Of a stretch of 64,000 nucleotides of DNA, positions 35,691 through 63,936 are shown piece after piece. The DNA comes from an uncultured Prevotellaceae bacterium. Its GTDB lineage: Bacteria; Bacteroidota; Bacteroidia; Bacteroidales; Bacteroidaceae. The position numbers and the translations under genes are program-made. The DNA lies in the NCBI GenBank assembly GCA_902778255.1, contig CACYXD010000003.1, positions 124,001 to 188,000 on the forward strand, read 5' to 3'. The number at the start of each line of letters is the position of its first letter. Position 1 is the stretch's first letter. The notes below the pieces were generated by a model. That model did no database searches. It was not told the origin of the DNA and saw nothing but the letters and a program-made list of their open reading frames with translations.

Positions 35691-35754
35691 GTGGCTGTGG
35701 ACGTAAAGGAAAGCCCCTCGGACATGCCGAAAAGTTTCTTTTACATTTATTATG

Positions 35755-35762
35755 TAATTTTG
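35755..35762 (+). promoter_or_regulatory. -7 promoter element of the FAS1-SusCD operon
   Basis: TAATTTTG, 63 bp before the first lipoprotein gene. No clear TTTG at the -33 position. Downstream genes to 52360 share short spacers (9-85 bp) without terminators. Confidence 0.5.
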
Positions 35763-38477: not shown

Positions 38478-38496
38478 AAATTGAGAATTGAAAATT

Positions 38497-41844: not shown

Positions 41845-41867
41845 TTGATAATTGAAAATAGATAATT

Positions 41868-43580: not shown

Positions 43581-43609
43581 GATTAATGGTTTATTGATAA
43601 TTGATAATT

Positions 43610-45583: not shown

Positions 45584-45620
45584 TTGAGAATTGAAAATTG
45601 AGAATTGAAAATTGAAGATT

Positions 45621-47279: not shown

Positions 47280-47307
47280 AAAGGTGAATAAGTAAAAACG
47301 AAGAATT

Positions 47308-50300
47308 ATGAATACAATAAAGCAATTTTTCCGTAGTGGAGATTGGACGAAAAGATGTTTGGTTGTGGCATTTTGCCTGCAATTCTCCATCTTCAACTTC
47401 TCATCTTCAATATGCTATGCGCAGGTTCAGCTGAAGACGGTAAGCGGTTATGTGACTGATGCCGCTACAGGACTCCCCCTTGCGGGTGTGCTCGTTGAGG
47501 CCTACGGTAACCAGAAATACACCGCCATGACCGACGAGAGGGGAGCCTACGAGTTGAAGGTGCCTGAGTATGTGAGCAGTTTGGGTATGCGTGTTGAGGG
47601 CTATCAGTTCCAGCAGAAAGCTATCCGTCAGGATATCGACAAGACCAATGCCGAGCTTTATCCTGCCACGTTCTCACCTGTCTATGAGCGTTCCACCCAG
47701 TCGTTTGTCAGTCGTCGTGCCGATAATTTCGACAATACGGCACAGGTGAGCATTGATCCTTTGGTGGCCGAACAGTTGGGCGCTGATATCCATTCCGTGA
47801 CCCGTAGTGGTCAGTTGGGTATTGGCAACACCATGTTCATCGGCGGTCTCACCAGTCTGCAGGCCAATGCACAGCCATTGGTGGTCATCGATGGTGTCAT
47901 CACCGACATGCAGATTGACCGTCAGATGCTCCACGAGGGCTATTTCAATAATATCCTGGCCAACCTCAATGTCAACGACATCGAGAGTGTCACCGTTCTG
48001 AAAAACGGTACTGCCCTCTATGGCTCCAAGGCTGCTGGTGGCGTGTTGCTCATCAAGACCAAGCGCAACCGTTCAATGGCTACCAAGATTGACGTGAATA
48101 TCAACGGCCAGTTCATGCTGACACCCCGTCTGCCTAAGATGATGGGTGCTGAGGACTATCGTCTCTATGCCACTGAGATGCTCTCTGGACTGACGTCCGA
48201 CCTCAGCAAGATGGAGTTTATCTCCAACGATCGCTCCGTACCTTATTATTATAATACCTATCATAATAATACCGATTGGACCGATGAGGTGTATCACAAC
48301 ACCTTTGTCTCCAACTATGGCATCAACGTACAGGGTGGTGACGATGTGGCCAACTACAACCTCTCGGTAGGTTATTCCTTTGGTGATGCTACGTTGCGCG
48401 GCAATGATTTCTCGCGTTTCAATATGCGACTCAACACCGATATCCATGTGTTCAAGGGACTTGACGTGCGTTTCGATGCCGCCTATAGCGATGTCACCCG
48501 TGACCTGCGCGATGATGGCGCTGCTGCCGACCTATCTTTCGGTACGGTCACGTCACCAGGTTTCCTCTCGCTCATCAAATCTCCTTTCCTGGCTCCCTAT
48601 GCTTATGACAACAATGGTAATCCCAGCCATTATCTGGCTGCTGCCGATGATTATGCCATCAAGGCTTTTGAGAACGACGGTTCTGTCTACCAGAATGCCG
48701 TGCGCCTGGCCAACCCCTTGGGTATCCTGCAACTCGGTGATGGCGAGAACCGCAACCAGGCAGGCAACCGTATGGTGACCTTCAGCATCACCCCTAAGTA
48801 TCAGTTCAACTCCCATCTCTCTCTGCAGGAACATTTCAATTTCACGCTGGTCAATACCAACGAGAACTATTACCTGCCTCTTGAGGGCACGCCTCCTTTC
48901 CGCCTGTTATCTACCAGTAATATCCAGGTTGAAAACATGGCTCAGAGTATGGCTGCCCGTCAGAACTCCATTATGAGCGACACCCGTTTGATGTGGAACA
49001 ATCGTTATGGTGCTCATAAGATTGATGTCTTTGGTGGTGTGCGTTATCAGAACAGTAAGTATAAGATGACGGCCCAGCGTGGCTACAATACTGGTAACGA
49101 TTTGTATCCCACCACGGGCAGTGCCAACAACTACCGTTCTACCTGGGGCGATGACGACAAGACCATCAACCTCGCATGGTATGCCCAGGCCGACTATAAC
49201 TGGGGCGAGAAATACTATCTTGAGGCAGGCCTCTCTGCCGAGACCAGTTCACGTATCGGTGAGGATGCCGACGGTTTGAAGCTTGGTGGCGTGGTATGGG
49301 GCCTCTTCCCCAGTGTCAATGCCGCTTGGGTGCTCAGCAACGAGAAATGGCTGGCCGATGTCAAGGGTATCGACTATCTGCGCCTGAATGTGGGCTTCGA
49401 TGTGACAGGTAATGACAATATCGACTACACCGCGTCTAAGACCTATTTCGTGGCCAACAATATGCTCTCTCAGAAGGTTGACGGCAAGTCCATCGGAAAT
49501 ATCGGCAACACCTCGTTGGCATGGGAGATCACCAATCGTCTGACTTTGGGCCTTGAGGGCAACTTCATGAACAACCGTCTGAATGCCCATGTCAATTATT
49601 TCAAGGGCTGGACCAAGAACCTGCTCACCCTTCGTCAGCTGGCATGGACCAGCGGTCTGGCCGAGAGCTGGAGCAATGATGGTAAGCTCGAGAACGAGGG
49701 CTTCGAGGTGGGCTTTGGTGCTAAGGTGCTCAACCTGAAAGACTTCACTTGGGAGGTGGGTGCGTCTGCCGGGCACTATGTCAATAAGATTACGGCCCTG
49801 CCCAACAACGACCGCTCCTTTGAGACCGAGGCTTATGGCGCTACTATCCTGTCTCAGGTAGGCTCGGCTGCCGGTGTGTTCTATGGCTATAAGACCAATG
49901 GTGTCTATACCACTCAGGCTGCTGCCGATGCAGATGGCCTTTATCAGGTCGATGAGCGTGGTCAGCGTGAGTATTTCGCTGCCGGTGATATGCGCTTCGT
50001 CGATAAGAACGGCGACGGCGTTATCGACAAGAACGACCGCTTCATCATCGGTGATCCCAATCCCGATGTCTATGGTAATATCTATACCCGCCTGAATTGG
50101 AAGCAGTGGACACTTGGTGCCACCTTCCGCTATTCTCTTGGCAATGATGTGTATAACTACCAGCGCTCACTACTTGAGGGCGGTTCTCGCTTCTACAACC
50201 AGACCACAGCCATGCTGGCACGCTGGACTGCAGAGGGACAGCAGACCTCTATACCTCATATCACCTATGGTGACCCCATGGGCAATGCCCGCTTCAGCGA

Positions 50301-50550
50301 CCGTTGGATTGAAGATGGCAGCTACCTGCGCCTGAGCAATGTCACGCTGAGCTATGCCATCCCCATCCGCAGCACCTATCTGCAGGGCATCACATTGTGG
50401 GGTGGTGCTTATAACCTCTTCACGCTGACTCGTTACCTGGGCAGTGATCCCGATTGTGGCGTTGGCGGCAGTGTGCTCGCACAGGGTATCGATCGTGGTC
50501 TCCTGTCCAGCTCGCGCTCGTTTGCACTGGGTGTGAAGGTTAATCTCTAA
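47308..50550 (+). CDS. SusC/RagA-type TonB-dependent outer-membrane transporter 2
   Basis: A 1080-residue protein whose signal peptide (MNTIKQFFRSGDWTKRCLVV) is nearly that of SusC 1. An N-terminal regulatory-like domain (SGYVTDAATGLPLAGVLVEA) and a plug (IGNTMFIGGLTSLQANAQPL then VVIDGVI) are followed by a barrel ending SFALGVKVNL. The mature protein is only distantly related to SusC 1. Its plug lacks the usual LRG motif (reads MFIGGL) and no clear TonB box was found. It is paired with the SusD gene at 50636. Confidence 0.9.
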   Translation: MNTIKQFFRSGDWTKRCLVVAFCLQFSIFNFSSSICYAQVQLKTVSGYVTDAATGLPLAGVLVEAYGNQKYTAMTDERGAYELKVPEYVSSLGMRVEGYQFQQKAIRQDIDKTNAELYPATFSPVYERSTQSFVSRRADNFDNTAQVSIDPLVAEQLGADIHSVTRSGQLGIGNTMFIGGLTSLQANAQPLVVIDGVITDMQIDRQMLHEGYFNNILANLNVNDIESVTVLKNGTALYGSKAAGGVLLIKTKRNRSMATKIDVNINGQFMLTPRLPKMMGAEDYRLYATEMLSGLTSDLSKMEFISNDRSVPYYYNTYHNNTDWTDEVYHNTFVSNYGINVQGGDDVANYNLSVGYSFGDATLRGNDFSRFNMRLNTDIHVFKGLDVRFDAAYSDVTRDLRDDGAAADLSFGTVTSPGFLSLIKSPFLAPYAYDNNGNPSHYLAAADDYAIKAFENDGSVYQNAVRLANPLGILQLGDGENRNQAGNRMVTFSITPKYQFNSHLSLQEHFNFTLVNTNENYYLPLEGTPPFRLLSTSNIQVENMAQSMAARQNSIMSDTRLMWNNRYGAHKIDVFGGVRYQNSKYKMTAQRGYNTGNDLYPTTGSANNYRSTWGDDDKTINLAWYAQADYNWGEKYYLEAGLSAETSSRIGEDADGLKLGGVVWGLFPSVNAAWVLSNEKWLADVKGIDYLRLNVGFDVTGNDNIDYTASKTYFVANNMLSQKVDGKSIGNIGNTSLAWEITNRLTLGLEGNFMNNRLNAHVNYFKGWTKNLLTLRQLAWTSGLAESWSNDGKLENEGFEVGFGAKVLNLKDFTWEVGASAGHYVNKITALPNNDRSFETEAYGATILSQVGSAAGVFYGYKTNGVYTTQAAADADGLYQVDERGQREYFAAGDMRFVDKNGDGVIDKNDRFIIGDPNPDVYGNIYTRLNWKQWTLGATFRYSLGNDVYNYQRSLLEGGSRFYNQTTAMLARWTAEGQQTSIPHITYGDPMGNARFSDRWIEDGSYLRLSNVTLSYAIPIRSTYLQGITLWGGAYNLFTLTRYLGSDPDCGVGGSVLAQGIDRGLLSSSRSFALGVKVNL

Positions 50551-50635
50551 ATGAATTAAGAATTTAGAATTAAGAGTTAAGAGGTATCGGCTTTTAGCCG
50601 AGTAAGAATTAAGAATTATATATAGGATACCGATT
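50551..50635. repeat. Intergenic hairpin repeat between SusC 2 and SusD 2
   Basis: AATTAAGAATTTAGAATTAA and AAGAATTAAGAATTA flank a small palindrome (TCGGCTTTTAGCCGA). The layout matches the repeat at 17053-17121 read on the other strand. Confidence 0.55.
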
Positions 50636-52360
50636 ATGAAACGAAATAAATTATTCATCCTTTCAGTGCTGGCAGTAGCCTTCTCGCTGACGAGTTGTTC
50701 CGATCTGCTCGAGACCGACAGCGAATTGGTGGAGTTTCAGAAGGACAACCACCTGGATTCACCTACTGATACAGTCTATAGCGTGATGGGCATCATCTAT
50801 AAGATGCAGACTATTGCCGATCGTACCGTGCTGCTCGGTGAACTGCGTGGCGACCTGACCACGACAACGACTTATGCCAGTCAGGACTTGAAGGACATCA
50901 CCAATTTTGACATCGATGCCGACAATGCCTATAATCGCATCAGCGACTATTATGCCGTGATCAACAACTGCAACTATTACCTTGCTAATGTCAACAAGGA
51001 CCTGGTACGCCACGACCGTACGGTGTTTGAGCATGAATATGCGGCTGTCAAGGGCTTCCGTGCCTGGACCTATCTGCAGTTGGCATTAGTCTATGGCAAC
51101 GTGCCTCTGATCACCGAGCCCCTTCTCACCGAGGAGGCTTCTCAAGCAGCTATGCAGCAGACACCGCAGAATATCAAGGCTATCTGCAACTATTTCATCG
51201 ACGACCTCAAGCCATATGTTGACACCCCGTTGCCCGACTATGGACTGATTGATGACAATAATACGAAGAAATTCTTCATCCCTGTGCGTGCGCTGCTGGG
51301 TGATTTGTGCCTGTGGGCAGAACGCTATACAGAGGCAGCCCAGTATTATCACGACTTCCTCGCCATGCGTACGGCTCCAGTCTATACCAACATGTCGCGT
51401 GCAGAGTGGACAGATACTGAGACCAGGCGTTTTTCTTCCACATATTCTTCGCTCTCCTATGTGATGGAGCGTAAAGTGGATAATAGCGAATGCCTGTGCT
51501 TTATCCCGATGGAGAGTGGCGAGGTCTATGGTGTGAAGAGCCAACTCAATGATCTTTTCAATTCTACCAGCCTTAATCAGATGTATGCCAAGGTGATGCC
51601 TACTGAGCAGAACTATCAGCTGTCGTCAAAGTACAACTATTGTTATCTGACCTACAAGGGAACAGGTGATAATAGGGTCGTTGACGATACGCTGTATGCC
51701 GAGCGTGATAACCTTAACGACAGAAAGAATTGTGGCGACCTGCGCTTTGGCACCATCTATTCCTTGAGATTATCGGGCGAGCAGCGCTTCTCCCGTACCT
51801 CCAACGAAGATCAGACTATCCGCAAGTACAACTCTGCTTCTGCCGGTGTGATGATCTATCGTACCAATATGGTCTATCTGCGCTATGCTGAGGCCCTCAA
51901 CCGCGCGGGTTATCCGCAGTCGGCCTTTGCAGTACTGAAATACGGCCTCTATCGTGATATCGTGGCAACGAAGATTAGTGAACCTGAGCGTACCAATGCC
52001 TCGGCGCTGATTACGTTTGATCCCGTCTATTTCACGTCTAAGAACACCCAGGGCATCCATACCCGTGGTTGTGGCGATGCCGATTGCGACACTACCTACT
52101 GTATCACGCTGCCAGCCACCGCCGCAGGTACCCTGCAGGACTCTATCGACGTGGTCGAAGACATGATTATCGACGAGATGGCACTCGAGGGTGCTTTCGA
52201 GGGCTATCGCTACTACGACCTGATGCGCGTGGCTCTTCGTCGCAACGATAATGCCTATCTGGCCGATCCTATTTCCCGCCGTTTTGGCGATGCTAATATC
52301 AATACTGAGCTAAAGAGCAAGTTGATGATCCGTGATAATTGGTATCTTCCCAAGCCCTGA
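50636..52360 (+). CDS. SusD/RagB-type surface lipoprotein 2
   Basis: A 574-residue lipoprotein; lipobox Cys21 in SLTSCSDLLE. SusD features include CSDLLETDSELVEFQ, AVKGFRAWTYLQLALVYGNV then PLITEPLLTEE, PVRALLGDLCLWAERYTEAA, NMVYLRYAEALNRAGYPQSA and the C-terminal EDMIIDEMALEGAFEGYRYY then DLMRVALRRND. It is more diverged from SusD 1 than a recent duplicate would be. It is the last gene of the operon; the next 357 bases hold regulatory signals only. Confidence 0.92.
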   Translation: MKRNKLFILSVLAVAFSLTSCSDLLETDSELVEFQKDNHLDSPTDTVYSVMGIIYKMQTIADRTVLLGELRGDLTTTTTYASQDLKDITNFDIDADNAYNRISDYYAVINNCNYYLANVNKDLVRHDRTVFEHEYAAVKGFRAWTYLQLALVYGNVPLITEPLLTEEASQAAMQQTPQNIKAICNYFIDDLKPYVDTPLPDYGLIDDNNTKKFFIPVRALLGDLCLWAERYTEAAQYYHDFLAMRTAPVYTNMSRAEWTDTETRRFSSTYSSLSYVMERKVDNSECLCFIPMESGEVYGVKSQLNDLFNSTSLNQMYAKVMPTEQNYQLSSKYNYCYLTYKGTGDNRVVDDTLYAERDNLNDRKNCGDLRFGTIYSLRLSGEQRFSRTSNEDQTIRKYNSASAGVMIYRTNMVYLRYAEALNRAGYPQSAFAVLKYGLYRDIVATKISEPERTNASALITFDPVYFTSKNTQGIHTRGCGDADCDTTYCITLPATAAGTLQDSIDVVEDMIIDEMALEGAFEGYRYYDLMRVALRRNDNAYLADPISRRFGDANINTELKSKLMIRDNWYLPKP

Positions 52361-52422: not shown

Positions 52423-52486
52423 GTTCAAAAAGAAAAAGTAACGAGACATATATTATAATACGTTTCATAAAATGTTTATAATTTTG
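52423..52486 (+). promoter_or_regulatory. Copy 2 of the GAGACA box with its -7 element
   Basis: GTTCAAAAAGAAAAAGTAAC (52423-52442) precedes GAGACATATATTATA; TAATTTTG lies at 52479-52486, exactly 36 bp after the G of GAGACA. The -33 position reads ATAA instead of TTTG, suggesting dependence on an activator. Degenerate TATCAC / TTTCAC motifs 22 bp apart occur upstream (52378, 52400). Confidence 0.55.
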
Positions 52487-52492
52487 CATCGT

Positions 52493-52638
52493 CGGAAGAC
52501 AAAAGTTTAGTTTGAAAGAAGTAATGATTCATTTTATAGTTATAGTTAGTAGTTGGATTTTAGTTTTGTAGTATATTAGTTAAAAACTAATGCAAACGGT
52601 TGCCTGTATGAGAATATCGGCAACCGTTTTGTTTTATT
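52493..52638 (+). ncRNA. Candidate small RNA or regulatory leader upstream of the hybrid regulator gene
   Basis: A promoter (TAATTTTG, 52479-52486) and a strong terminator (52594-52638) bracket ~145 bases that contain only a 15-codon ORF (starting MIHFIV at 52525). A small hairpin ATTAGT/ACTAAT (52575-52591) precedes the terminator, as in the candidate at 1112-1259. The regulator gene at 52718 has its own promoter at 52674, so this can be a separate RNA. Alternatively, read-through could make it an attenuator. The 5' end is estimated. Confidence 0.45.
52594..52638 (+). terminator. Rho-independent terminator
   Basis: AAACGGTTGCC (52594-52604) pairs perfectly with GGCAACCGTTT (52619-52629) over a 14-base loop, followed by TTTTGTTTTATT. 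Confidence 0.8.
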
Positions 52639-52673
52639 AACATTATGAAAGGGATGTTTTCTCTCCTTTTTTG

Positions 52674-52681
52674 TAATTTTG
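52674..52681 (+). promoter_or_regulatory. -7 promoter element of the hybrid regulator gene
   Basis: TAATTTTG, 36 bp before the ATG. No good -33 motif. Confidence 0.55.
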
Positions 52682-52717
52682 CAGTTGAAAACCAAAAACG
52701 CTTACTATAACGACTAT

Positions 52718-55700
52718 ATGAAACGCACTATATTGGTATTACTACTCACAGCCATAACCTTTGTTTATGGCTATGCACAGACGGGGCATTTTATCTCTGC
52801 CGACCGTTTTTCCAGCAGTCTTATTTCTGAAATGTGTCAGGATTACGACGGTTCTGTGTGGATAGGTACCGATTATGGACTGAACCGTTTCGATGGCTAT
52901 CGTTTCCAGACATTTCTCCACGACGATGCCGACTCTACCTCCCTGCAGGTCAATGTTATCGTATCGCTGATGGTCGATCGCAAAGGTCGCCTCTGGGTGG
53001 GTACTAACCGTGGTCTCGACCGTTTCGATGCCGCCAAGGAGTCATTCGTTCATTATCCCTTCCCCAATGGTGTGCATCCCCGTGTGGCCAGTATCTGCCA
53101 GCGTAAGGATGGTACCATCCTGGTGGGCACGGCAGGCTATGGTATCTACTATCTGAATGCCGAAGAAAAATTGACAGACTATAATATTGATCGTAGCGAA
53201 CAGTATTTTAGTCGTGTTTTCGAGGATAGCAAGGGGCGCCTCTGGAAGACTGGCTTTGATGAGCAGATCGTGATGCGAGAAGGCAACAAACTGACGCGTT
53301 TCAAGTCTGAGGTAGGTAATCCCCAGAGTATCGTGGAGTGTGACGGCGAGATTTTCATTCTTGGTCTGCATGGCCTGATGAGCTATCGAGATGGCAAGAT
53401 GAGTGCGACCGATGCCGACCTTAGTGCAGCCTCGTCGTGTGATGCTATCTTCGACAATGCCTCTATCAATGAATCAGATGTTATTTATATAGGTACGCGA
53501 GGCGACGGTTTGTTCCGCCTGCCCGTCAAGGGCTCGCGCCGTCTTGAGCGTGTTGATATCGATGCCAACGGCATTGACGTGAACACTGCCAAGATTGTCA
53601 ACGTCATGTTCGACCGCAATGGTAATATGTGGCTGGGCTGCCACCGCAAGGGCGTGGTACTTATGCCCATGCGCCCCATGCCCTTCCGCAACTGGAGCTT
53701 CCTGTCTCAGGGCGTCACCTTGGGCTCTACTATCTCTTCTATATGCGAGGGCGATAATGGCATGATGTGGTGCACGGTTCAGGGTGTGGGTGTCTATGGC
53801 TTCAACCCTGAGGGACATGTGGTGGCTCATCCTGCCGCCCCTGATGCCGTGGAGTTTATCTTCCGCGATCGTCAGCAGCGTTTCTGGGTGGGCACCGACG
53901 AGGGACTTTTCGCCTATGACCCGCTCACGGGGAAGTATCAGCGTAAGGTTACCTTTGAATGCGACAGGTTTAATGATATGACCAGCGATAGTGATGGACG
54001 TATCTATATCTCCACCTATTCGCGTGGCTTCTGTATCTATGATCCCCAGACGGGCAGTCTGCGCAACTATAACTTCTCGCAGACCGACTCTGTCAAGGGT
54101 ACCCTCTGCAACAACTGGATTCAGGGCATGGCCTCCGATGCCAAGGGCTATATCTGGATGGCCACCGCTTCGGGTATCTCGTGTTTCGATCCTCGTACCG
54201 AGAGCTTCCGTTCTCAGGGCTGGGAGCGTATGCTCGATGGCATCGTTTGCTTCGATGTGTGCGAACTGCATCATGGCACGCTGCCCGATGGTCGCTCGCT
54301 CAACGGCTTTATCGCCATTGGTACTGAGCAGGGCCTCTATCTCTACGACCCGCAGACCCGCCGTGCCGACCGTTTCCCTGGCAGCAATCAGCTGAACAAC
54401 AAGACCATCTGCTATATCGTGCAGGCTAATAATGGTGACCTCTGGTGCTCCACCTCCGATGGTATCTGGCAGTATCGCAACGAGGGCCATGCCTTCTTCG
54501 GCTATGTGGGCGTCAGCGGACTGACCCAGAAGGAGTTCCTTTATGGCATAGGCCTTCATACCGACGACGACCGTATCTTCTTTGGTCATAGTGATGGTCT
54601 CACCTCGTTCCAACCTCAGGATGTCAATGTGGACTCACGCCAGTTGGATCCTCTGCAGCTTACGGGTGTCTTCGTAGGTAGCACAGCCATTACCAGCGAG
54701 ACGGTGCTCAATGGCGTGCGTGTCACCGATAGGCCCGTCAAGGAGAGTACCTACTTTACGCTAAGCTATCTGGACCATACCATCACGCTGGGCTTCTCGC
54801 AGATGAACTTCGACAACCCCCGCAACGTGGTGTTTGAATACCGTATCAACAATGGTGACTGGATTACCAACCCGATGGGTGTCAACGAGATCACGTTGAG
54901 CCACCTCCAGCCCGGTACCTATCGCATTGAGGTGCGTGGTATGCTGGGCAATGCCTATACGCCAGGGAAGGTGGTGGTCATCACTATGCGTGCCCCCTGG
55001 TATCGCACCATGCTGGCCTATTTCCTCTATTTCCTCGTGCTGGTATCGCTGGCTATCTATGTCTTTGTCACCTATCGCCGCCGTGCTGCCGAGCAGATGA
55101 ACGAAGAGAAGATGAAGTTCCTCATCAACGCCACCCACGACATCCGCTCGCCGCTGACGCTGATAATGAGCCCGTTGGCCAGCCTGAAGCGCCGTCTCGC
55201 CAGCGAGGAGCAGGATAAGTCCAGCGAGTCGATGCGCGACATTGATACCATTGAGCATAATGCCAACCGTATCCTGAACCTGGTCAACCAGATTCTCGAC
55301 GTGCGTAAGATTGACAAGCAGCAGCTGCATCTCCATTGTCAGCAGACAGAGATGGTGGCCTTCGTCAAGGGCATCTCTAAGATGTTTGAATATACTGCCC
55401 AGGAGCGTGACATCACCTTCCGCTTCCAGCATGACGACGAGCAGCTCGAGGCATGGATCGACCGCAGCCAGTTTGACAAGGTGGTCACCAATCTGCTCTC
55501 CAATGCCTTTAAGTATAGCTTTGATGGCGGCAGTATCGAGATCAGCCTGTCGCATGACGACAGCCAATTCAAGATCCAGGTCATCGACAATGGCGTGGGA
55601 CTTGATGCCGACAGTCTGAAGCATATCTTCGACCGCTTCTATCAGGGCACCAACTCCTATCGTCTCCATGTTGATGGCACGGGCATCGGGTTGAACCTCT

Positions 55701-56662
55701 GTAAGATGATTGTCGATATGCATCATGGCACTATCACCGCCCGCAACAACGAGAGCGGAAAGGGCTCTGTATTCGAGGTCACGCTGCCATTAGGCAACTC
55801 GCATCTGGCAGAAAACGAGATAGAGCAGGAACCGTCTGCCGTCACCCAACAACCATCACCCACCACCCACCACCCAGCAACCAACAAGCGCCGTGTGCTC
55901 GTGGTCGATGACGATGAGGAGATCTGTCGCTATGTGTCCAGCGAGTTGGGCCGTTACTATAAGTTCACCACCATGCCTAATGGTAAGGAGGGACTGAAGG
56001 AACTGCTCACCAACGACTACGACCTGGTGGTCAGCGACGTGATGATGCCTGAGATGGATGGCTTCACCATGCTCCGCATGATCAAGACCAATGCTAATAT
56101 CTCCCATGTGCCCGTAGTAATGCTTACATCGAAGGCCGATGTGGCCAACCGCCTTGAGGGCTTGGAGCGTGGTGCCGATGCTTTCCTCGCCAAGCCGTTC
56201 GACATGGAGGAGCTCCACATGGTGATCGAGAACCTGATCCAGAGCCGCCAGCGCCTGAAGGGTAAGTACAGCGGCGCACAGCAGCAGGTCGATAAGCTGG
56301 AGCTGCCCGAGGTGAAGGGCAATGACGAAATGCTCATGGAGCGTATCATGAAGTCGGTCAACAAGAACTTGTCAAACAGCGACTTCAACGTGGATATGCT
56401 CACCCAGGAGGTAGGTATCAGCCGTGCCCAGCTGCATCGTAAGATGAAGGAGATGACAGGTATCTCCACCTCCGAGTTTATCCGCAACATCCGCTTGGAG
56501 CAGGCTGCCCGCCTGCTGCGCGAGCAGAAGGTCAACGTCACTCAGGTGGCCTACACCGTGGGCTTCTCAAACTTGGCCCATTTCTCTACCATCTTCCGTA
56601 AGCACTTTGGTGTGTCTCCCTCGGAGTATGCTGAAAGGGAAGGCGAGGGTAGCGAAAAGTAA
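52718..56662 (+). CDS. Hybrid two-component system regulator (sensor kinase, receiver and AraC domain in one chain)
   Basis: A 1314-residue inner-membrane regulator of the type that controls polysaccharide-utilisation loci. After a signal peptide or anchor (MKRTILVLLLTAITFVYGYA), residues ~25-630 form a two-component-regulator propeller of WIGTDYGLNRFDGYRF-type repeats, followed by a Y_Y_Y-like domain (~680-745, VVFEYRINNGDWITNP) and a membrane helix (~758-780). The kinase has His807 (ATHDIRSPLTLIMSPLASLK), then NLLSNAFKYSFDGG, DNGVGLD and GTGIGLNLCKM. The receiver phosphoacceptor is Asp1107 (LVVSDVMMPEMDGF). The C-terminal AraC domain ends FSNLAHFSTIFRKHFGVSPS. The start at MKR gives the signal peptide. 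It probably senses the imported ligand in the periplasm and activates the adjacent locus. Confidence 0.93.
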   Translation: MKRTILVLLLTAITFVYGYAQTGHFISADRFSSSLISEMCQDYDGSVWIGTDYGLNRFDGYRFQTFLHDDADSTSLQVNVIVSLMVDRKGRLWVGTNRGLDRFDAAKESFVHYPFPNGVHPRVASICQRKDGTILVGTAGYGIYYLNAEEKLTDYNIDRSEQYFSRVFEDSKGRLWKTGFDEQIVMREGNKLTRFKSEVGNPQSIVECDGEIFILGLHGLMSYRDGKMSATDADLSAASSCDAIFDNASINESDVIYIGTRGDGLFRLPVKGSRRLERVDIDANGIDVNTAKIVNVMFDRNGNMWLGCHRKGVVLMPMRPMPFRNWSFLSQGVTLGSTISSICEGDNGMMWCTVQGVGVYGFNPEGHVVAHPAAPDAVEFIFRDRQQRFWVGTDEGLFAYDPLTGKYQRKVTFECDRFNDMTSDSDGRIYISTYSRGFCIYDPQTGSLRNYNFSQTDSVKGTLCNNWIQGMASDAKGYIWMATASGISCFDPRTESFRSQGWERMLDGIVCFDVCELHHGTLPDGRSLNGFIAIGTEQGLYLYDPQTRRADRFPGSNQLNNKTICYIVQANNGDLWCSTSDGIWQYRNEGHAFFGYVGVSGLTQKEFLYGIGLHTDDDRIFFGHSDGLTSFQPQDVNVDSRQLDPLQLTGVFVGSTAITSETVLNGVRVTDRPVKESTYFTLSYLDHTITLGFSQMNFDNPRNVVFEYRINNGDWITNPMGVNEITLSHLQPGTYRIEVRGMLGNAYTPGKVVVITMRAPWYRTMLAYFLYFLVLVSLAIYVFVTYRRRAAEQMNEEKMKFLINATHDIRSPLTLIMSPLASLKRRLASEEQDKSSESMRDIDTIEHNANRILNLVNQILDVRKIDKQQLHLHCQQTEMVAFVKGISKMFEYTAQERDITFRFQHDDEQLEAWIDRSQFDKVVTNLLSNAFKYSFDGGSIEISLSHDDSQFKIQVIDNGVGLDADSLKHIFDRFYQGTNSYRLHVDGTGIGLNLCKMIVDMHHGTITARNNESGKGSVFEVTLPLGNSHLAENEIEQEPSAVTQQPSPTTHHPATNKRRVLVVDDDEEICRYVSSELGRYYKFTTMPNGKEGLKELLTNDYDLVVSDVMMPEMDGFTMLRMIKTNANISHVPVVMLTSKADVANRLEGLERGADAFLAKPFDMEELHMVIENLIQSRQRLKGKYSGAQQQVDKLELPEVKGNDEMLMERIMKSVNKNLSNSDFNVDMLTQEVGISRAQLHRKMKEMTGISTSEFIRNIRLEQAARLLREQKVNVTQVAYTVGFSNLAHFSTIFRKHFGVSPSEYAEREGEGSEK

Positions 56663-56683
56663 ATTATAAAAGAATACTGAATG

Positions 56684-56725
56684 AAGGATGGTGTTTCGAT
56701 TAATGAAATGCCATCCTTTATTATT
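56684..56725 (+). terminator. Rho-independent terminator of the hybrid regulator gene
   Basis: AAGGATGG (56684-56691) and CCATCCTT (56711-56718), with inner TTTC/GAAA pairing, followed by TATTATT. Confidence 0.7.
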
Positions 56726-56922
56726 CTACAATGCACTTTTGGGAAAACAATTATGAACAATGAGAAATAATTACGTTCAACAATGACCAATAATTTTTTT
56801 TTCTTATTGTTGGATTAAATTCTTTCCTATTCTTGCAAATTGTTTTCTTGTATCAGCGGCGATTACACGAACTTTTTTGTTTTGTTTTTATGTCTTTAAA
56901 AAGATTTGTTTTCATGTGATTC

Positions 56923-57051
56923 TGTCTTAAAATACCCTTACTTTATCTCTTAAAACCCTTGGTTTGTCTTGGTTTTTCTTTCGTGCTGAACAAAAATAAA
57001 AGTCTATGAGACAAATATTATAGTTCCTTTGCGCAAATTGCTGTACTTTTG
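56923..57051 (+). promoter_or_regulatory. Complex promoter: three 21-bp direct repeats, copy 3 of the GAGACA box, -7 element
   Basis: TGTCTTAAAATACCCTTA (56923), TATCTCTTAAAACCCTT (56944) and TGTCTTGG (56965) recur every 21 bp. The box follows 23 bp later: GAACAAAAATAAAAGTCTAT (56988-57007), then GAGACAAATATTATAG. TACTTTTG lies at 57044-57051, exactly 36 bp after the start of GAGACA. The -33 position reads ATAG, not TTTG. The 21-bp spacing is what AraC-type half-sites commonly use. The rest of the 56726-57090 gap is AT-rich with nothing else clear. Confidence 0.6.
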
Positions 57052-57090
57052 CACCCAAAATATATATTATTAATCAAATTTTACCTAAAA

Positions 57091-59124
57091 ATGAAAAAAC
57101 TAACAAAAATGATGCTCGTCCTTGCCCTGCTGGTCGTAGGAGTAGGGGGAGCAAAAGGCGTAACGTTAAACGCCTCGTTCCAGACACCAGCTTCTAATGC
57201 TTCATGGAATGCTGGTACAAACACTTACACATGGACAGGTAGCACTAATAACCTGATGACTATGTTTTCATTCTCTAAAGGAGAACTAGCCATGTATAGT
57301 AAAATTCATTTGGAGGTTGCCCAATCAACTCACCATAACTTTAGATTCACTTTAATGAATGGTAGTACAAAGTTAGGTGAAGTCGTATGTTGGAGCTCAG
57401 GTACGAAAGACATTACTTTTGCTACTCATGAAAATACAAAGAATGTTGATTTGTCTCAGGTGACAGATATCGCTTTTGGTGGTTCTGAAGATCCTGGTAC
57501 GGGTAATAGTTTTTCTTGTGTATTGACAAATGTCTATCTTGAGGGACCTGCAACTGGATATGAAGTGGAATATGAGGCTGGTACTCCTCTTTCTTTGGCA
57601 TCGGTTGTAAGTGGTAGTACTTTGGTTACTATTGGAGCAGCAGATGAGTCAATTCTTTATGGAAAGACTAGTGATAACCAAATTTATAGAGCTGCAATAA
57701 ATAATGCAATGGCTTTGGTATCTGGAGCAGGTAGCAGTAACTCTACTTATCAATTCCGCATAATAGAGGCAACAGACGATGGGTTGGTTTATCCTGCTGG
57801 TGTCACCACTTTATATCGTATAAAGGCCTTTAAGGGTGATGGCACTACGCCTTATACGGGACCAGGATGGAATGGAGGACAGAGTTACTATCTTCAGGAT
57901 ATTGGATGGACATATAATGTTTCAGATGGAACAGCAACTGATCAGGCAAATTTCTTTGCAATTGCCCCTGTTCCTGAAAAAGATAATACCTACAAGATAA
58001 CTTCCTATAAGAAGGATGGAACAAAAGTACATGATAATATTTATGAAAAGTCAGAATGGTTCTTCTATGTTTTAGGTGAGACTATTGTTCCGGAAAAGAA
58101 AGTTGTTGCTGCTAATGACAATATTTTCGCTATGAGTAAATTCTCAGAAGGAAAATGGACCTTTGCTGATCCCGTTAGTCTTTATGATTGGGATTATCTT
58201 GTCATTGCAACCGAGAATACTGCAGCCAATGTTAGCCATCAAATTATATTGAAAGACGAAAGCGGTAAGACTGTTGGAGGTGATGCTTATAAAGGAGAAG
58301 CTGTTGGCACTGGAGCAGGTATGTGGCTTGACTATTGGAATAGTCAGAATATAATTGCAATTGATTTAAACCAGTTGCGTAGAGCTAATGGATTGGATGT
58401 ATTTAAGATTAAGTCTTTGGAAATTACAGGCGATATTAAACCTTCTGTAGTTTATTTGACAGATTATGCCAATGCAAAGATTACAAATCGTGGACGTTGG
58501 ACATTGTATGTTGAAGGAGATGTTGTTCGTTCATATTCTGCTACTGATAAATTTGGCACGATTTGTTTGCCATATAAGGCTTCGTATGCTGGTGCAAAAT
58601 TATATGAAATTACCGGAGGTGGAAGTTATGGCATATCATTGGAAAAAGTTGCAGGTCTTCTGGAACCAGGAAAGGCATATTTCTATATGTCATCTGATGA
58701 AAATGGTCAAGATAATGGAAACACGGTACGCAATGTCCATTTCTTCCGTGCTGACAATGATACTTATGATGCCTCTGACCCCGTTCCCAACAACGGTCTG
58801 ATTGGTACTTTCTCAGCTATTACCGCTCCTGCTAGTTCTGATGTTTACGTGCTGAGCAACAATAGACTTTATGATACAGAGGGTTCTACTGTTACTATTG
58901 GTGCCAACAAGGCATATATCGATATGTCTCAGGTTCCTACAGGTGGTGGTGCAGCTCGTGACATCATGCTGTACTTCGGCGATGCCGACGAGACCACTGG
59001 TATTGCAGATATGAGCAGCCAGAAGGCAGATGTAAAAGCTATCTACAACCTGCAGGGTCAGCGTGTGAACCGCCTACAGAAGGGTCTGAACATCGTCAAT
59101 GGTAAAAAGGTATTGATGAAGTAA
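57091..59124 (+). CDS. Secreted protein with C-terminal sorting tail, unknown function
   Basis: A 677-residue protein; the ATG is chosen for the signal peptide MKKLTKMMLVLALLVVGVGG. Residues ~28-165 form a beta-rich domain (NNLMTMFSFSKGELAMYSKI, then HLEVAQSTHHNFRFTLMNG) like carbohydrate-binding or jelly-roll modules. A middle region is rich in aromatic and acidic residues. The region after ~480 (FGTICLPYKASYAGAKLYEI and ALTAP-like SAITAPASSDVYVLSNNRLY) is a common secreted Prevotella module. The C-terminus (AIYNLQGQRVNRLQKGLNIV, then NGKKVLMK) is a type A sorting tail. No catalytic motif was recognised. The gene is more AT-rich than the SusCD genes before it. Confidence 0.7.
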   Translation: MKKLTKMMLVLALLVVGVGGAKGVTLNASFQTPASNASWNAGTNTYTWTGSTNNLMTMFSFSKGELAMYSKIHLEVAQSTHHNFRFTLMNGSTKLGEVVCWSSGTKDITFATHENTKNVDLSQVTDIAFGGSEDPGTGNSFSCVLTNVYLEGPATGYEVEYEAGTPLSLASVVSGSTLVTIGAADESILYGKTSDNQIYRAAINNAMALVSGAGSSNSTYQFRIIEATDDGLVYPAGVTTLYRIKAFKGDGTTPYTGPGWNGGQSYYLQDIGWTYNVSDGTATDQANFFAIAPVPEKDNTYKITSYKKDGTKVHDNIYEKSEWFFYVLGETIVPEKKVVAANDNIFAMSKFSEGKWTFADPVSLYDWDYLVIATENTAANVSHQIILKDESGKTVGGDAYKGEAVGTGAGMWLDYWNSQNIIAIDLNQLRRANGLDVFKIKSLEITGDIKPSVVYLTDYANAKITNRGRWTLYVEGDVVRSYSATDKFGTICLPYKASYAGAKLYEITGGGSYGISLEKVAGLLEPGKAYFYMSSDENGQDNGNTVRNVHFFRADNDTYDASDPVPNNGLIGTFSAITAPASSDVYVLSNNRLYDTEGSTVTIGANKAYIDMSQVPTGGGAARDIMLYFGDADETTGIADMSSQKADVKAIYNLQGQRVNRLQKGLNIVNGKKVLMK

Positions 59125-59176
59125 TTATTAATTCGTGATTTAAAGTATTCACATTATTCAAATTTGATTCGAAAAT

Positions 59177-59350
59177 ATGAAAAAGATATATCAAAAGCCA
59201 CTGATTGAAGACTTGGAAGTCTTGGGCAATGACATGATTTGTACCTCGCTTGAAAAAGGCGGTAATGCCGGTACGAGTGGCGTTACTGAAGGCGATGCCC
59301 GTTTCTTTGACGGTGAAGACCTGTGGTTCGACGAGGATCTCGGGGAGTAA
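59177..59350 (+). CDS. 57-residue acidic peptide of the MKKIYxKP type
   Basis: A short complete frame (MKKIYQKPLIEDLEVLGNDM start, stop at 59350) 52 bp after the secreted-protein gene and before its terminator, so probably in the same transcript. It has no signal peptide. The N-terminus is basic (KKIYQKP), the middle is Gly-rich (GGNAGTSGVTEGD) and the end is strongly acidic (DGEDLWFDEDLGE). Short proteins of this style, starting MKKxYxKP, are frequent in Prevotella and Bacteroides and lack a known function. A ribosomally made peptide precursor is one possibility, but no modifying enzyme is nearby. Confidence 0.6.
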   Translation: MKKIYQKPLIEDLEVLGNDMICTSLEKGGNAGTSGVTEGDARFFDGEDLWFDEDLGE

Positions 59351-59391
59351 TAGCCCGACATGTAAAGTCGTATATACATTATTTATATATA

Positions 59392-59428
59392 AAAGGGACA
59401 TGCCATACGCAAATGGCGTGTCCTTTTT
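59392..59428 (+). terminator. Rho-independent terminator
   Basis: AAAGGGACATGCCAT (59392-59406) pairs with ATGGCGTGTCCTTTT (59413-59427) with two wobbles, ending in a T-run. Confidence 0.8.
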
Positions 59429-59558
59429 GCGTTTTATGCTGTTTTAGGTTGCGTTTAAGGCTGTTTCACGTTGCGTTTGAGCCTATTTCATGATGCGTTT
59501 GAGGCTGTTTCGCATCCTATTTCAGCCTATTTCATGATGCGTTTTAGCCTCGTTTGTA
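59427..59558. repeat. Six imperfect 22-bp tandem repeats, intergenic
   Basis: Units of the form TTGCGTTTGAGGCTGTTTCA begin at 59427, 59449, 59471, 59493, 59515 and 59537, exactly 22 bp apart, with the fifth most diverged. They follow the terminator and precede the next promoter complex. They encode no protein. Confidence 0.7.
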
Positions 59559-59666
59559 AGAAAGATCAAATTTGTACCTTTTTTTTGCTGCGTACTACAC
59601 GTTTTTTGTTATTATGTTCTTGCGTCCCTTCGGTAGCAAGCGTCTCCTTACGTCGCCGAGCGATTG

Positions 59667-59794
59667 TGTCTTTAAAAACTGTTACTCTGTCTTAGAAAAC
59701 CCTAATTCTGTCTCTCTTTTTTAGCGTTTTGAACAAAAAAGAAAGTCTATGAGACAAATTTTATGGTATGTTTGATTGATTCCCTTTATCTTTG
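59667..59794 (+). promoter_or_regulatory. Complex promoter: three 21-bp direct repeats, copy 4 of the GAGACA box, -7 element
   Basis: TGTCTTTAAAAACTGTTA (59667), TGTCTTAGAAAACCCTAA (59688) and TGTCTCTC (59709) recur every 21 bp. The box GAACAAAAAAGAAAGTCTAT starts 22 bp later (59731-59750), followed by GAGACAAATTTTATGG. TATCTTTG lies at 59787-59794, 36 bp after the start of GAGACA. The -33 position reads ATGG. The layout copies that at 56923-57051. The rest of the gap, 59559-59666, shows nothing clear. Confidence 0.6.
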
Positions 59795-59852: not shown

Positions 59853-62800
59853 ATGAACATGAAAAAATCTTACATGTTGCTGCTGGCACTGCTGCTGACC
59901 GTCATGGGTACATCGGTTGCTTCAGCTAAGATTTATCGAACTACGCTCGATAAGTCGATGTTTAAGGCATGGACATCTGCAGACCCCGGGGCTACCGTCG
60001 TGGAGAACCCTGAGGCAATTGATGTCACGGATGCAAATCCGGAAGGAACCAAGTTCGCTTGTGACTACGTTCTGTATCAGGCACTTGGTGACTGGTCTGG
60101 TATTTATGGTAGCACTGCAGCTTACTATCTGTGGTATGCCGACCTGACTGGCACACAGAAGATCTACTTCACTGGTACCCCAGGTCTTCATTTCTTTGTA
60201 CAGTTCAACCGTGTGGCTCCTGAAGAGGGCGCTTCTGATACTCACGGTGGCGCTATGACTCAGGAAGAACTGACCATCGGTGATGACGGTACAGTTGTTT
60301 ACGACTGCTCTAAAATGGAGTATGTACACCTTAACTGTATTAAGACAAAGAGTGCAGGAATTAAAGGTGGCGTTATCAAGAGCATCAAGATCGAAGGTAC
60401 TGTTGAGCCAGTTGTTGGTATCAAGAGCGTGATCAACAATGGTGATGCTGAGGGCGATGACCTCGCAAGCTTCCCCGTTTCTTTGGATGGTCCTAACAAT
60501 GATAACACTGCTAATGATCTCCCCGAGGTTGTTGCAGGTGAGGGCGTTGATGGCAGCAAGTGCTTTAAGGTAACTGCTTTCGAAACTCCTACTGAGGTCT
60601 GGCACACCCAGTTCTATATCAAGGCTGACGAGGTGATGGCAAAAGGTGCTAAGTGGAAGCTGAAGATGGCTATCAAGGCCAGCAAGCAGAGTCAGGTTAC
60701 TACTTCTGCACAGGCTCAGCCCCGTACATGGAAGGGCGGTATGATCAATGAGTTTACCGTATATACTGATTGGAAAGAGTACACATGGTCTGGTGAAATC
60801 GGCGTTGATGATTTCCAGAGCATCGCTTTTGACTTGAATAATGGTGAGGAGCGTAATGAAGCTGGCGACGGTTGGAAGCCAGGTAATGGCGGCACAGAGT
60901 TCTTCTTCGATAACATCGAGTTCGGTTACGACCTCGGTGGTGACAGCCCTGTTGAAAACTTCCAGGCTCTCTTCGATGGCGATGTTATTCGTCTTGACAT
61001 GACAAGCTTTACCAATATCAAGGATTTGGTTAAGGCTGCTCCTGGTGGTAAGTTCCTGTTGTTCCCCGCTGGTACCTTTACTGTAAAGGTTGATGACGAA
61101 GCAAAGGAAGTTGACGCTGCTGCTGCTTATGATGATGGTCAGATATATATCTGGATCAATGGTCGTATGGACGAGGATTCTAAGGTGGAGGTTGCTTTCA
61201 ACAATCCCGAGGCTGCTGAAACTCATCTGAAGTTCGTTGGTGGTGAGTTCGATGGTCAGGACATCCCTGCTTTCGCTGCTCTTATTAGTTCTTACCGCGA
61301 TGGTGCTGGTAATGGTAAGGTGTCTCCTTCATTCGCTCTGCCTACTGTAATCGGTTGCGATCCTGAGGCTGGCTCATTCAACCTGCCTAAGACCTTGAAT
61401 ACCTTCGTGGTATCATTCGACAACCCCATTAACCCTACAGCTCTGACTGCTAAGCTGGGTGCTGAGGCTCTGACAGTAAATGTATCTGCTGATAATAAGG
61501 TGGCTACTCTGACCCGTACAGCAGCTACCGAGCTGAATGGCACTCGCGAACTGATTCTTGAGCATATCAAGGCTGTTGCAGGTCTTGGTGAAGAAAGTTC
61601 TGATACTATTAAGTTTAGCTTTGGCCCTGTTAATGCAGAAGAGGGCGTTGAACTGATTTATGCAGCTAACTTCACTGAAAGTGGTGATGACAATAAGGCT
61701 GCTGGTTGGAAAGTAAATAAGGATGGTGGCGAAGAGTTGCAGGATGCTAATACTGGTGCTGGTTGCCGTCTGATGCATGGCCAGACCGCTTTTGCTGCCG
61801 ACATCCTTTATCTTGCTCAGCGCGAGAGCAATCCTCGTTGTCCTAACGGTGTTGCCCTGTATGGTATCGTTGAAAATTACGCTTTGACTTTGGCTGCAAA
61901 GACATATCACTTGTCTTTGGATGCCTCTAAGTGGGACCGTGACAACGATCGTACCCTGTTGGTTCAGGTTCTTCCTTTGACTGCTGTGAATACTGAGAGC
62001 GGTGCAGTTACAGACGAGACCGCTATCTTGGCTCAGGAGCGTAAGGCTATTACTCCTACGTTGGCTTCTAAGGAGGCTATCCACTTCGATATTGCATTCA
62101 CTGTAGAAACTGCTGGTGATTATGTGATTCGTATGGTCCCTGGTGACGCTAATGGTAATCCTAACGGATATGCTGATGGTTGCGCTATCGGTAATGTGAA
62201 GGTTGAGTACATCCCCGATGTAATGGGTATCGTAGAGACTCAGGCTCTGAATGAGGCTCTGAATAAAGCAAAGGCAACTCTGGAAACCGTTAGCGAGAAT
62301 ACTCGTTATGCTGGTGCTGATCAGAATAATCTGAGTGCTTATATTCAGGATGTTGAGACCAACATGGCTGGATACACCGCTCCTTCTGTATATGCTGCAA
62401 AGACTGAAGGACTCGGTGCTGCAGAAAAAGCTCTGAACGAGCACAAGTCTGCTTGCGACACCTACGACGAGAACATCAAGAAGGTGATCAACGTTGTTGC
62501 TGACAAGGCTGATACCAAGTTCAAGAATTCACCTGTTTATGCTGACATCAAGGCTGTTGCCGAGAAGTATCATGGCACCATCGAGAAGACCGTGACTCCT
62601 CCTGAAGTTGAAGGTGATGACTCTGTGGTTGTTGTTAAGTACAGCTTCGATCTGCTGACAGATAACGACTCTCTGGCTGCTGCCAACACTGAGCTGACAA
62701 GTGCTGCTGCTCTGGGTGACAACTTCTTCACTGAGGTTGCTCTCGATGCTGACATCCAGCAGGGTAACTGCGGTATCGCCGTTCTTACTGAGCGTCTGCG

Positions 62801-63809
62801 TCTGGGTGCCCGCACTCTGATGTCTCTGGGCGTATCTGCTGACGATGAGATGATTAAGCGCGTTCAGAACGCTATGACCGACGATGATGATCTGGCTGAT
62901 GAAATCAAGAAGCGTATCACTGGCATGATCTATGACTCACTGTCAGTTGCTGAGCCTACGCTCTTCGATCCTACTGAGGAAGATTTGGAGGCTGGTATCG
63001 AGACAGGCCGTGCATACGATATGACCGTGTTCCTCAAGAACCCGAACATCTATGCTGTTGACGGTACAAAGGATCTTTCTGAGGAGAATGTTCCTGGTTG
63101 GAAATATCCTCAAGGAAATCCCGGTAAGTTTACTGCTTGGGGTGCTCGTAACGTGGCTGGTCTGCCTGAGGACTGCGCATTCACAACATGGTTTGGCACT
63201 AACCGTATGGAACAAACCATCACCGACCTGCCTGTAGGTCTCTACATTGTATCGCTCTGCGGTTCTGACTGGTCTAACCAGGCTGGTAATTCAGACAATC
63301 CTCACGATGTAAACGGCTTCGTATATTGCAAGCTTTCTGACACTCCTGAAGTTGAAGAGGGTGAGGAAGAGGATAAAGAACTGCACTTCGCTGCTACCAG
63401 AACTATCGTTTATGGTGGTCAGTACAACATGGATCACGCTATCAACCTGGGTGTTGAAGAGGTAATCGATGATGAGACTGGTTTCGTTAAGACTACTGAT
63501 GATGACGATGCTGAGGTATTCGGTATTCCTGTAGTTGATGGATTCCTGACACTCGGTATCCAGTTCGCTGGTGATGCTCAGTATTTCTTCCAGCACGCTC
63601 GTCTGACCCTGATCGGTGCAGCTGAGAACTTCGACTATGAGAAGGCTAAGACTGGCATCGAGGCTACACCTGCTCCTGCAAAGGTACGCGCTATCCAGGT
63701 TTACGACCTGAACGGCCGCCGCATGATCAAGACTCACAAGGGTCTGCAGATTGTGAAGAAGCAGATGACCGACGGCACTGTACGTGTTGAGAAGGTTGTA
63801 GTGAAGTAA
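59853..63809 (+). CDS. Very large secreted protein with sorting tail, unknown function
   Basis: A 1318-residue protein. Signal peptide MNMKKSYMLLLALLLTVMGT, cut near ASAK. Residues ~25-185 and ~195-365 form two beta-rich segments; the second (AEGDDLASFPVSLDGPNND ... EFFFDNIEFGYDLGG) resembles carbohydrate-binding modules of the CBM4/CBM9 kind. An Ig-like segment follows (~505-590, NTFVVSFDNPINPTALTAKL), then a jelly-roll-like segment, a helical region (~795-1000) with FIVAR-like helices (LNEALNKAKATLETVSENTR) and a further beta domain (ETGRAYDMTVFLKNPNIYAV). The C-terminal tail IQVYDLNGRRMIKTHKGLQI then VEKVVVK is a type A sorting signal. No catalytic residues were identified. It is strongly acidic overall. 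A surface binding or structural role is inferred. Confidence 0.7.
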   Translation: MNMKKSYMLLLALLLTVMGTSVASAKIYRTTLDKSMFKAWTSADPGATVVENPEAIDVTDANPEGTKFACDYVLYQALGDWSGIYGSTAAYYLWYADLTGTQKIYFTGTPGLHFFVQFNRVAPEEGASDTHGGAMTQEELTIGDDGTVVYDCSKMEYVHLNCIKTKSAGIKGGVIKSIKIEGTVEPVVGIKSVINNGDAEGDDLASFPVSLDGPNNDNTANDLPEVVAGEGVDGSKCFKVTAFETPTEVWHTQFYIKADEVMAKGAKWKLKMAIKASKQSQVTTSAQAQPRTWKGGMINEFTVYTDWKEYTWSGEIGVDDFQSIAFDLNNGEERNEAGDGWKPGNGGTEFFFDNIEFGYDLGGDSPVENFQALFDGDVIRLDMTSFTNIKDLVKAAPGGKFLLFPAGTFTVKVDDEAKEVDAAAAYDDGQIYIWINGRMDEDSKVEVAFNNPEAAETHLKFVGGEFDGQDIPAFAALISSYRDGAGNGKVSPSFALPTVIGCDPEAGSFNLPKTLNTFVVSFDNPINPTALTAKLGAEALTVNVSADNKVATLTRTAATELNGTRELILEHIKAVAGLGEESSDTIKFSFGPVNAEEGVELIYAANFTESGDDNKAAGWKVNKDGGEELQDANTGAGCRLMHGQTAFAADILYLAQRESNPRCPNGVALYGIVENYALTLAAKTYHLSLDASKWDRDNDRTLLVQVLPLTAVNTESGAVTDETAILAQERKAITPTLASKEAIHFDIAFTVETAGDYVIRMVPGDANGNPNGYADGCAIGNVKVEYIPDVMGIVETQALNEALNKAKATLETVSENTRYAGADQNNLSAYIQDVETNMAGYTAPSVYAAKTEGLGAAEKALNEHKSACDTYDENIKKVINVVADKADTKFKNSPVYADIKAVAEKYHGTIEKTVTPPEVEGDDSVVVVKYSFDLLTDNDSLAAANTELTSAAALGDNFFTEVALDADIQQGNCGIAVLTERLRLGARTLMSLGVSADDEMIKRVQNAMTDDDDLADEIKKRITGMIYDSLSVAEPTLFDPTEEDLEAGIETGRAYDMTVFLKNPNIYAVDGTKDLSEENVPGWKYPQGNPGKFTAWGARNVAGLPEDCAFTTWFGTNRMEQTITDLPVGLYIVSLCGSDWSNQAGNSDNPHDVNGFVYCKLSDTPEVEEGEEEDKELHFAATRTIVYGGQYNMDHAINLGVEEVIDDETGFVKTTDDDDAEVFGIPVVDGFLTLGIQFAGDAQYFFQHARLTLIGAAENFDYEKAKTGIEATPAPAKVRAIQVYDLNGRRMIKTHKGLQIVKKQMTDGTVRVEKVVVK

Positions 63810-63868: not shown

Positions 63869-63891
63869 TATGAAACAAATTGAAAGGGAAA

Positions 63892-63936
63892 CGAAACATT
63901 CATCTGCGAATGTTTCGTTTCTTTTTATTACCTTTG
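63892..63936 (+). promoter_or_regulatory. Perfect 10-bp inverted repeat and -7 element before the last gene
   Basis: CGAAACATTC (63892-63901) and GAATGTTTCG (63908-63917) form a perfect hairpin followed by TTTCTTTTTATT. TACCTTTG (63929-63936) is a good -7 element 11 bp after it. The hairpin could be a second terminator or an operator. A weak GAGACA-box match (AAACAAATTGAAAGGGAAAC, then GAAACA) sits exactly 36 bp before the -7 element. Confidence 0.5.

Follow-up and report, generated by a model that had tools for sequence, protein, structure and literature searches.

A fixed-geometry promoter class and a putative small RNA in a SusCD locus of an uncultured Prevotellaceae bacterium

Hybrid two-component system (HTCS) proteins are a major class of regulators of polysaccharide utilization loci (PULs) in Bacteroides (PMC11253607), and the HTCS motifs of Bacteroides thetaiotaomicron are described as direct repeats with an average distance of 21 bp (Ravcheev et al. 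2013, PMC3878776). Here, we analyze 64,000 nucleotides of DNA from an uncultured Prevotellaceae bacterium (assembly GCA_902778255.1, contig CACYXD010000003.1, positions 124,001 to 188,000; hereafter the window, numbered from its first letter), in which a conserved box recurs at one distance from the -7 element in promoters of a SusCD locus that encodes an HTCS at 52718. The box resembles the B. thetaiotaomicron motifs (PMC3878776) in being a two-site direct repeat, there of 21 bp on average, before PUL genes and near an HTCS gene; it differs from them in genus and sequence, in its fixed distance to the -7 element, and in having a short RNA among the presumed targets.

Sigma-ABfr promoters have two elements, TAnnTTTG at -7 and TTTG near -33, the latter of which was not found in Flavobacterium johnsoniae (PMC7366714). 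Among the described small RNAs, FopS and GibS of B. thetaiotaomicron have PUL or sugar genes as their targets and pair close to start codons (PMC11697453, PMC7366714), FopS being a 14-member family aimed at SusC messages, and the DonS-type RNAs (PMC7366714, PMC10994844) are short, PUL-encoded and regulatory but divergent from and antisense to susC. The RNA of the window has no sequence relation to FopS or GibS at Rfam thresholds, occurs in single copy (two in one genome), and is co-oriented with the adjoining HTCS, the leader of which it matches. In enteric bacteria, OmpR activates OmrA and OmrB, RNAs that repress the ompR message itself; both RNA and regulator there are unrelated to those considered here, where sensor, kinase and DNA-binding domain are united in one protein. 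No description of the present RNA family was found in the open-licence PMC literature or in Rfam, and no RNA acting on an HTCS message in the open-licence PMC literature; the family is apparently undescribed so far.

Promoters with a box 36 bp from the -7 element

The three near-identical boxes that a first-pass annotation had placed at 52423, 56988 and 59731 were all recovered there, with GAGACA (52443, 57008, 59751) beginning exactly 36 bp before TAnnTTTG, and boxes were also read from the window sequence at 35658 and 63873. The weak fifth copy, at 63873, keeps the 36-bp spacing, as claimed, and the direct repeat as well. The fourth strong copy claimed before the SusCD operon was borne out only as to the box itself: it lies at 35658 but has no -7 element at 36 bp, and the true fixed-geometry site, missing from the first-pass list, is at 35719, where it was recovered by a matrix built from the promoters of 31 relatives with the window left out. 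This matrix, used for all scores below unless stated otherwise, ranks the following five promoters highest in the window.

52423..52486, plus strand: promoter 1, GAGACA at 52443 and -7 element TAATTTTG at 52479, leading into the RNA; score 49.4
56988..57051, plus strand: promoter 2, GAGACA at 57008 and TACTTTTG at 57044; score 42.3
59731..59794, plus strand: promoter 3, GAGACA at 59751 and TATCTTTG at 59787; score 34.8
63873..63936, plus strand: promoter 5, weak box with GAAACA at 63893 and TACCTTTG at 63929; score 23.6
35719..35762, plus strand: promoter 4 proper (SusCD operon), GGACAT at 35719, 36 bp before TAATTTTG at 35755; score 12.5
35658..35683, plus strand: upstream strong box of the SusCD operon, GAGACA at 35678, no -7 element at 36 bp; score -3.6

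The next-ranked candidate in the window scores 2.5 and the minus strand at most 1.9, and ten block shuffles gave a best score of -3.9 (with a 32-row matrix that includes the window). The string GAGACA-N30-TAnnTTTG itself occurs in the window three times on the plus strand and not at all on the minus strand. Before the SusCD operon, where the strong box at 35658 sits 41 bp (about four helical turns) upstream of the site at 35719, half-sites at 35659, 35680, 35700 and 35721 follow one another at 21, 20 and 21 bp, the last of them as far from the -7 element as its counterparts in the other promoters.

Across the 3.5-Mb own genome, with reversed patterns as controls, a 23-mer box pattern with 0-1 mismatch has four matches, every one in this locus. 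With up to three mismatches it has 32, against 38 for the control, so that the weaker matches are background. The looser pattern GARACA-N18..42-TAnnTTTG has 41 matches (29 with GAAACA, 12 with GAGACA), and 14 of these (9 and 5, respectively) have a gap of exactly N30, compared with about 1.1 at each other spacing (Poisson 2e-11). Because the reversed control totals a similar 30 (21 + 9) over all spacings from N18 to N42 yet has none at N30, the excess is limited to that one spacing. The annotation had named occurrence before hundreds of unrelated genes as what would mark the box as a general promoter feature or the site of another regulator; instead, the full box is local, and even the core at the exact gap has only 14 matches genome-wide.

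For comparison with relatives, the stretch encoding the RNA was used in a BLAST search of 398 same-genus genomes, yielding 53 places in 51 genomes, of which the 52 outside the own genome were fetched. Six places (L193-L195, L202-L204) were spurious, lacking the terminator loop, and were excluded from later counts, which leaves 47 real ones; one of these, L200, does not have the exact loop pattern, was counted as real by eye, and is absent from the 46-row alignment. Exact GARACA-N30-TAnnTTTG precedes the RNA in 32 of the 47 loci, six more have one mismatch in the hexamer, and nine have no box. The -7 element is that of sigma-ABfr promoters, whereas TTTG at -33, the absence of which the annotation had reported, is indeed lacking in all 32 related promoters, which fits activator dependence; taken alone, this absence is weak evidence because the -33 motif was not found in F. 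johnsoniae either. In 24 of the 32 promoters, the ACA of GARACA is preceded by the trinucleotide ACR at exactly 21 bp, and no other offset between 12 and 29 exceeds 9 of 32; a self-comparison of the whole box profile did not single out this offset (-8.3 at 21, -7.4 at 16). In 25 of 37 loci, the first 1 kb beyond the HTCS stop codon contains another box; among control windows, which may include some real sites, the count is 17 of 679. In three loci (L033, L034, L035), box and spacing recur before the HTCS and are followed by a conserved stretch ending in an intrinsic terminator and then by the HTCS with a promoter of its own. Since a single spacing stands out genome-wide, no -33 TTTG is found in any of the 32 promoters, and the geometry is kept in 32 of the 47 loci, these sequences very probably form a class of promoters that require an activator.

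The locus that these promoters serve comprises the following genes.

35826..52360, plus strand: run of fasciclin, SusC, SusD, fasciclin, fasciclin, SusC and SusD genes (Pfam)
52718..56662, plus strand: HTCS with Reg_prop, Y_Y_Y, HisKA, HATPase_c, Response_reg and HTH_18 domains (Pfam)
57091..59124, plus strand: gene after promoter 2, probably secreted product, no Pfam match
59853..63809, plus strand: gene after promoter 3, probably secreted product, no Pfam match
from 63967, plus strand: GH43 gene, followed beyond the window by GH5-GH43 and GH97 genes

The weak fifth site accordingly precedes glycoside hydrolases. As in PULs regulated by an HTCS, the locus holds an HTCS with sensor, kinase, receiver and AraC-type domains, a direct repeat of about 21 bp, and a site conserved before orthologous genes, and it is quite likely that the activator acting at the box is the HTCS at 52718, the candidate put forward in the first-pass annotation. 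The support is by association: the box accompanies homologues of this protein, recurs after its gene as counted above, and shares the 21-bp repeat of the Bacteroides HTCS motifs. Relatives of the HTCS occur in Prevotella and Prevotellaceae genomes, among others, in the best 80 of at least 591 matches.

Several further features lie beside these promoters. TGTC repeats (GACA on the minus strand) are present at 59667-59712 and 56891-56968, just upstream of promoters 3 and 2, and those at 59667, 59688 and 59709 follow in exact 21-bp steps, the sole such triple in the window (spacings 10 to 39 scanned); none occurs before the corresponding promoter in L155 or L156. An RNA hairpin of 19 pairs (63883-63926) overlaps the fifth site, and in this and two other GAAACA-N30-TAnnTTTG sites (L281 and L282, by eye) box and -7 element are separated by an inverted repeat resembling a hairpin. 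The notion of 63873 as a mere terminator hairpin was dropped, given a separate hairpin at 63832-63863, the retained repeat and spacing, and the GH43-led gene run downstream. In L172 and L197, a fasciclin/SusC operon diverges from RNA and HTCS, with a weaker minus-strand box (20.4 and 23.0) between them. A tRNA gene (35136-35223, Rfam) lies just upstream of the SusCD operon promoter.

A conserved, putative terminated RNA and its match to the HTCS start region

Promoter 1 is predicted to lead not straight into the HTCS but into a short terminated RNA of about 150 nt; both this RNA and a separate -7 element of the HTCS had been overlooked in the first pass.

52488..52637, plus strand: conserved RNA (approximate ends), with a 5' part, a small hairpin at 52575-52591, and a terminator hairpin at about 52594-52629 followed by a T-run
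52674..52681, plus strand: -7 element of the HTCS's own promoter, downstream of the RNA terminator

Many copies share this anatomy: TAGTTAGTAGTT is abundant in the 5' part, the small hairpin contains TTAGTTATGGTAAAACTAA, and the loop of the terminator hairpin resembles GTATGNGAATAT. RNAalifold, applied to the 46 rows, predicts the terminator as the sole structure, with compensated changes in 8 of its 13 pairs. An HTCS gene is found within the fetched DNA at 41 of the 47 real places; of the other six, four (L173, L183, L192, L199) are cut by contig ends and two (L158, L191) are not. RNA and HTCS are co-oriented and mostly 70-230 nt apart, and each of 41 loci has a TAnnTTTG no more than 120 nt from the HTCS start, accompanied in 21 by TTTG around -33. 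By sequence, the element has what is expected of a small-RNA gene, namely, its own promoter (the nine boxless loci apart), an intrinsic terminator and conserved structure, and it is probably an independent small RNA.

A covariance model built from the 46 rows, with matches below 47 bits treated as uncertain and its E-values as rough, finds 56 places at 48 bits or more in 55 of the 398 same-genus genomes, one copy per genome and two in one genome. The RNA is present in 47 of 49 genomes with an N-terminal HTCS match of at least 830 bits (the exceptions being G007 and G022), on the same contig as the HTCS in 41 of these and on a different contig in six (G096, G103, G264, G312, G343, G382). It is found in 8 of the remaining 349 genomes, where the HTCS has 46-48% identity and adjoins the RNA in seven and is on another contig in one (G138). 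Counted from these tables, the co-occurrence has a Fisher probability of 4e-50, uncorrected for ancestry and for the training of the model. Among 301 family genomes, three from other genera reach 53-55 bits. A gathering-score search of Rfam 15 over the RNA in the window and in L033-L035 returned no match, the sole hit being the tRNA at 35136-35223, and the same search of 20 of the 30 loci L125-L154 gave no match; relaxing the limits brings up GibS and Bacteroides-1, both at about 20 bits and far short of their thresholds (GibS 19.7 against a gathering score of 115).

The start region of the HTCS often reads TTTTACCATAACTATG, the complement of the RNA loop, and among 26 genomes, of which 20 have a BLAST match to the RNA and 6 have none, TTACCATAACTATG is present seven times, invariably at an HTCS start. 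Because RNAduplex with long loops discriminated poorly (24 of 41 loci at no more than 10 of 200 shuffles), ungapped stacking runs were used instead as the pairing statistic. By this measure, 32 of 41 loci show pairing between RNA and HTCS start that no more than 3 of 300 shuffles attain (for L157 the start used is possibly wrong, another in-frame ATG lying upstream). Pairing of -17 kcal/mol or better at the start region is found in 30 of the 41; at five shifted positions the corresponding counts are 2, 1, 1, 0 and 1, and the opposite strand yields none. Cognate pairs average -18.1 against -16.2 for permuted ones, and none of 10,000 permutations was as good, although related species share both partners. 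Pairing proceeds via letters other than those of the common loop in L163, L187 and L206 and, outside the training set, in L262, which has a 17-bp run; altogether, five of eight loci outside that set reach the 3-of-300 level, one of which, L292, looks close to a training locus. The complementarity in relatives suggests negative feedback on the HTCS, and we lean towards the view that the pairing is functional in the family. In the strain of the window itself this is doubtful: its RNA lacks the TGGT of the common loop and its HTCS leader lacks ACCATAAC.

Proposed regulation and its alternatives

We propose that the box is an activator site with two half-sites, the cores ACR and ACA 21 bp apart, of which the proximal one, exactly 36 bp upstream of the -7 element, would substitute for the absent -33 element. 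Upon sensing glycan, the HTCS at 52718 would bind the repeat as a dimer and recruit polymerase to promoters that have no -33 element, inducing the SusCD operon, the two probably secreted proteins, the glycoside hydrolases and the short terminated RNA. The HTCS itself would be transcribed from a separate promoter located downstream of the RNA; in most of the species examined, this RNA would mask the HTCS start codon and inhibit translation. Because the RNA is complementary to the HTCS start-codon region in most relatives, activation would also make an inhibitor of the HTCS, a negative feedback on the sensor. Box, spacing, repeat, conservation, the RNA family, the covariation of its terminator and the complementarity in relatives are read directly from the sequences, from which we infer binding by the HTCS, existence of the RNA as a transcript, and repression; the explanation as a whole appears fairly probable. 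The first-pass proposal of activator-dependent promoters is upheld with regard to the promoter class, and the interpretation in its entirety is partly supported.

A number of results weigh against this explanation. The bare core GARACA stands at the exact 36 bp in ten places outside the locus in the own genome, so that several related regulators may use it. An open frame lies shortly downstream of eight of these and of none of the other two (within the fetched DNA), and most of the eight frames start like exported proteins, by eye. In the relatives, the RNA is not preceded by a box in nine of the 47 loci (two of these are at contig ends), and L158 and L191 hold a real RNA with no HTCS nearby although the DNA is present. 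Most of the genomes in which the covariance model is counted also served to train it, shared ancestry inflates all cross-species counts, and many of the genomes are incomplete assemblies. As to the pairing, nine of 41 loci miss the 3-of-300 level, as do three of the eight outside the training set, and of 170 other start regions, 11 equal the cognate one in pairing. In the window, the pairing amounts to 8 bp and is matched or beaten by 69 of 300 shuffles and 37 of 40 non-cognate RNAs, and among 19 start regions no target of the window RNA stood out, the best being fas2 at 43601 (9 of 200 shuffles). The feedback claim rests on the relatives, since the pairing in the window is no better than chance.

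At one of the own-genome sites with this geometry (contig C16, 659-702; L280), GAGACA-N30-TACCTTTG, with a second GAGACA 22 bp upstream, precedes a protein resembling the product of the gene at 57091, and this site is possibly a distant member of the regulon.

The alternative that survives best would make the RNA the mere conserved 3' end, or terminator, of the susCD operon, with low complexity accounting for its match to the HTCS leader. The sequence of the RNA is repetitive and rich in A and T, and in seven loci (L173, L178, L181, L183, L187, L199, L206) it lies 56-165 nt after a susD hit with no box promoter, as if a product of a 3' untranslated region. Terminators with the same loop type (GTATGNGAA...) also occur before HTCS paralogues or after another operon, with no box or rest of the RNA (L253-L255, in G156, G259 and G195, and L246). 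The covariance matches in G156, G195 and G259 are below 47 bits, are located upstream of HTCS paralogues and seem to consist of just the terminator part, and L246 appears by eye to have hardly anything of the RNA apart from the terminator; the loop may be a 3'-end element of wider occurrence. We nevertheless consider this alternative unlikely, because strong pairing is seen at the start region in 30 of 41 loci but in 0-2 of 41 when the position is shifted, and because some loci pair through letters other than the common loop.

That another regulator, whether a second HTCS or an AraC-type protein, binds the boxes in place of the HTCS at 52718 is improbable: it would account for the ten outside places, with a core shared by related regulators, whereas the full box with 0-1 mismatch is restricted to this locus and in relatives accompanies homologues of this very HTCS, both before and after the gene. 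We likewise give little credence to a regulated HTCS leader rather than a free small RNA, with a terminator sometimes read through and a leader that folds back on the HTCS start region, as would suit the adjacency and common orientation of the two and complementarity that lies upstream on the same strand and is possible within a single transcript, because the HTCS has a TAnnTTTG close to its start in all 41 loci, 21 of them with TTTG around -33, and the strong terminator stem is maintained by compensated changes.

If the HTCS-activated promoters and the RNA act as proposed, Prevotella-like bacteria would possess a family of PUL-encoded small RNAs that are activated by the sensor from a promoter of fixed geometry and repress the same sensor at its start codon, with RNA and leader co-evolving by seed changes, a generalization on which we find the balance even. 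The fixed geometry of the promoters would let regulons be predicted from sequence, and the match between RNA and HTCS leader opens a feedback loop on a sugar sensor to direct testing; such a loop, if real, would place RNA-based negative feedback inside single sugar-uptake loci.

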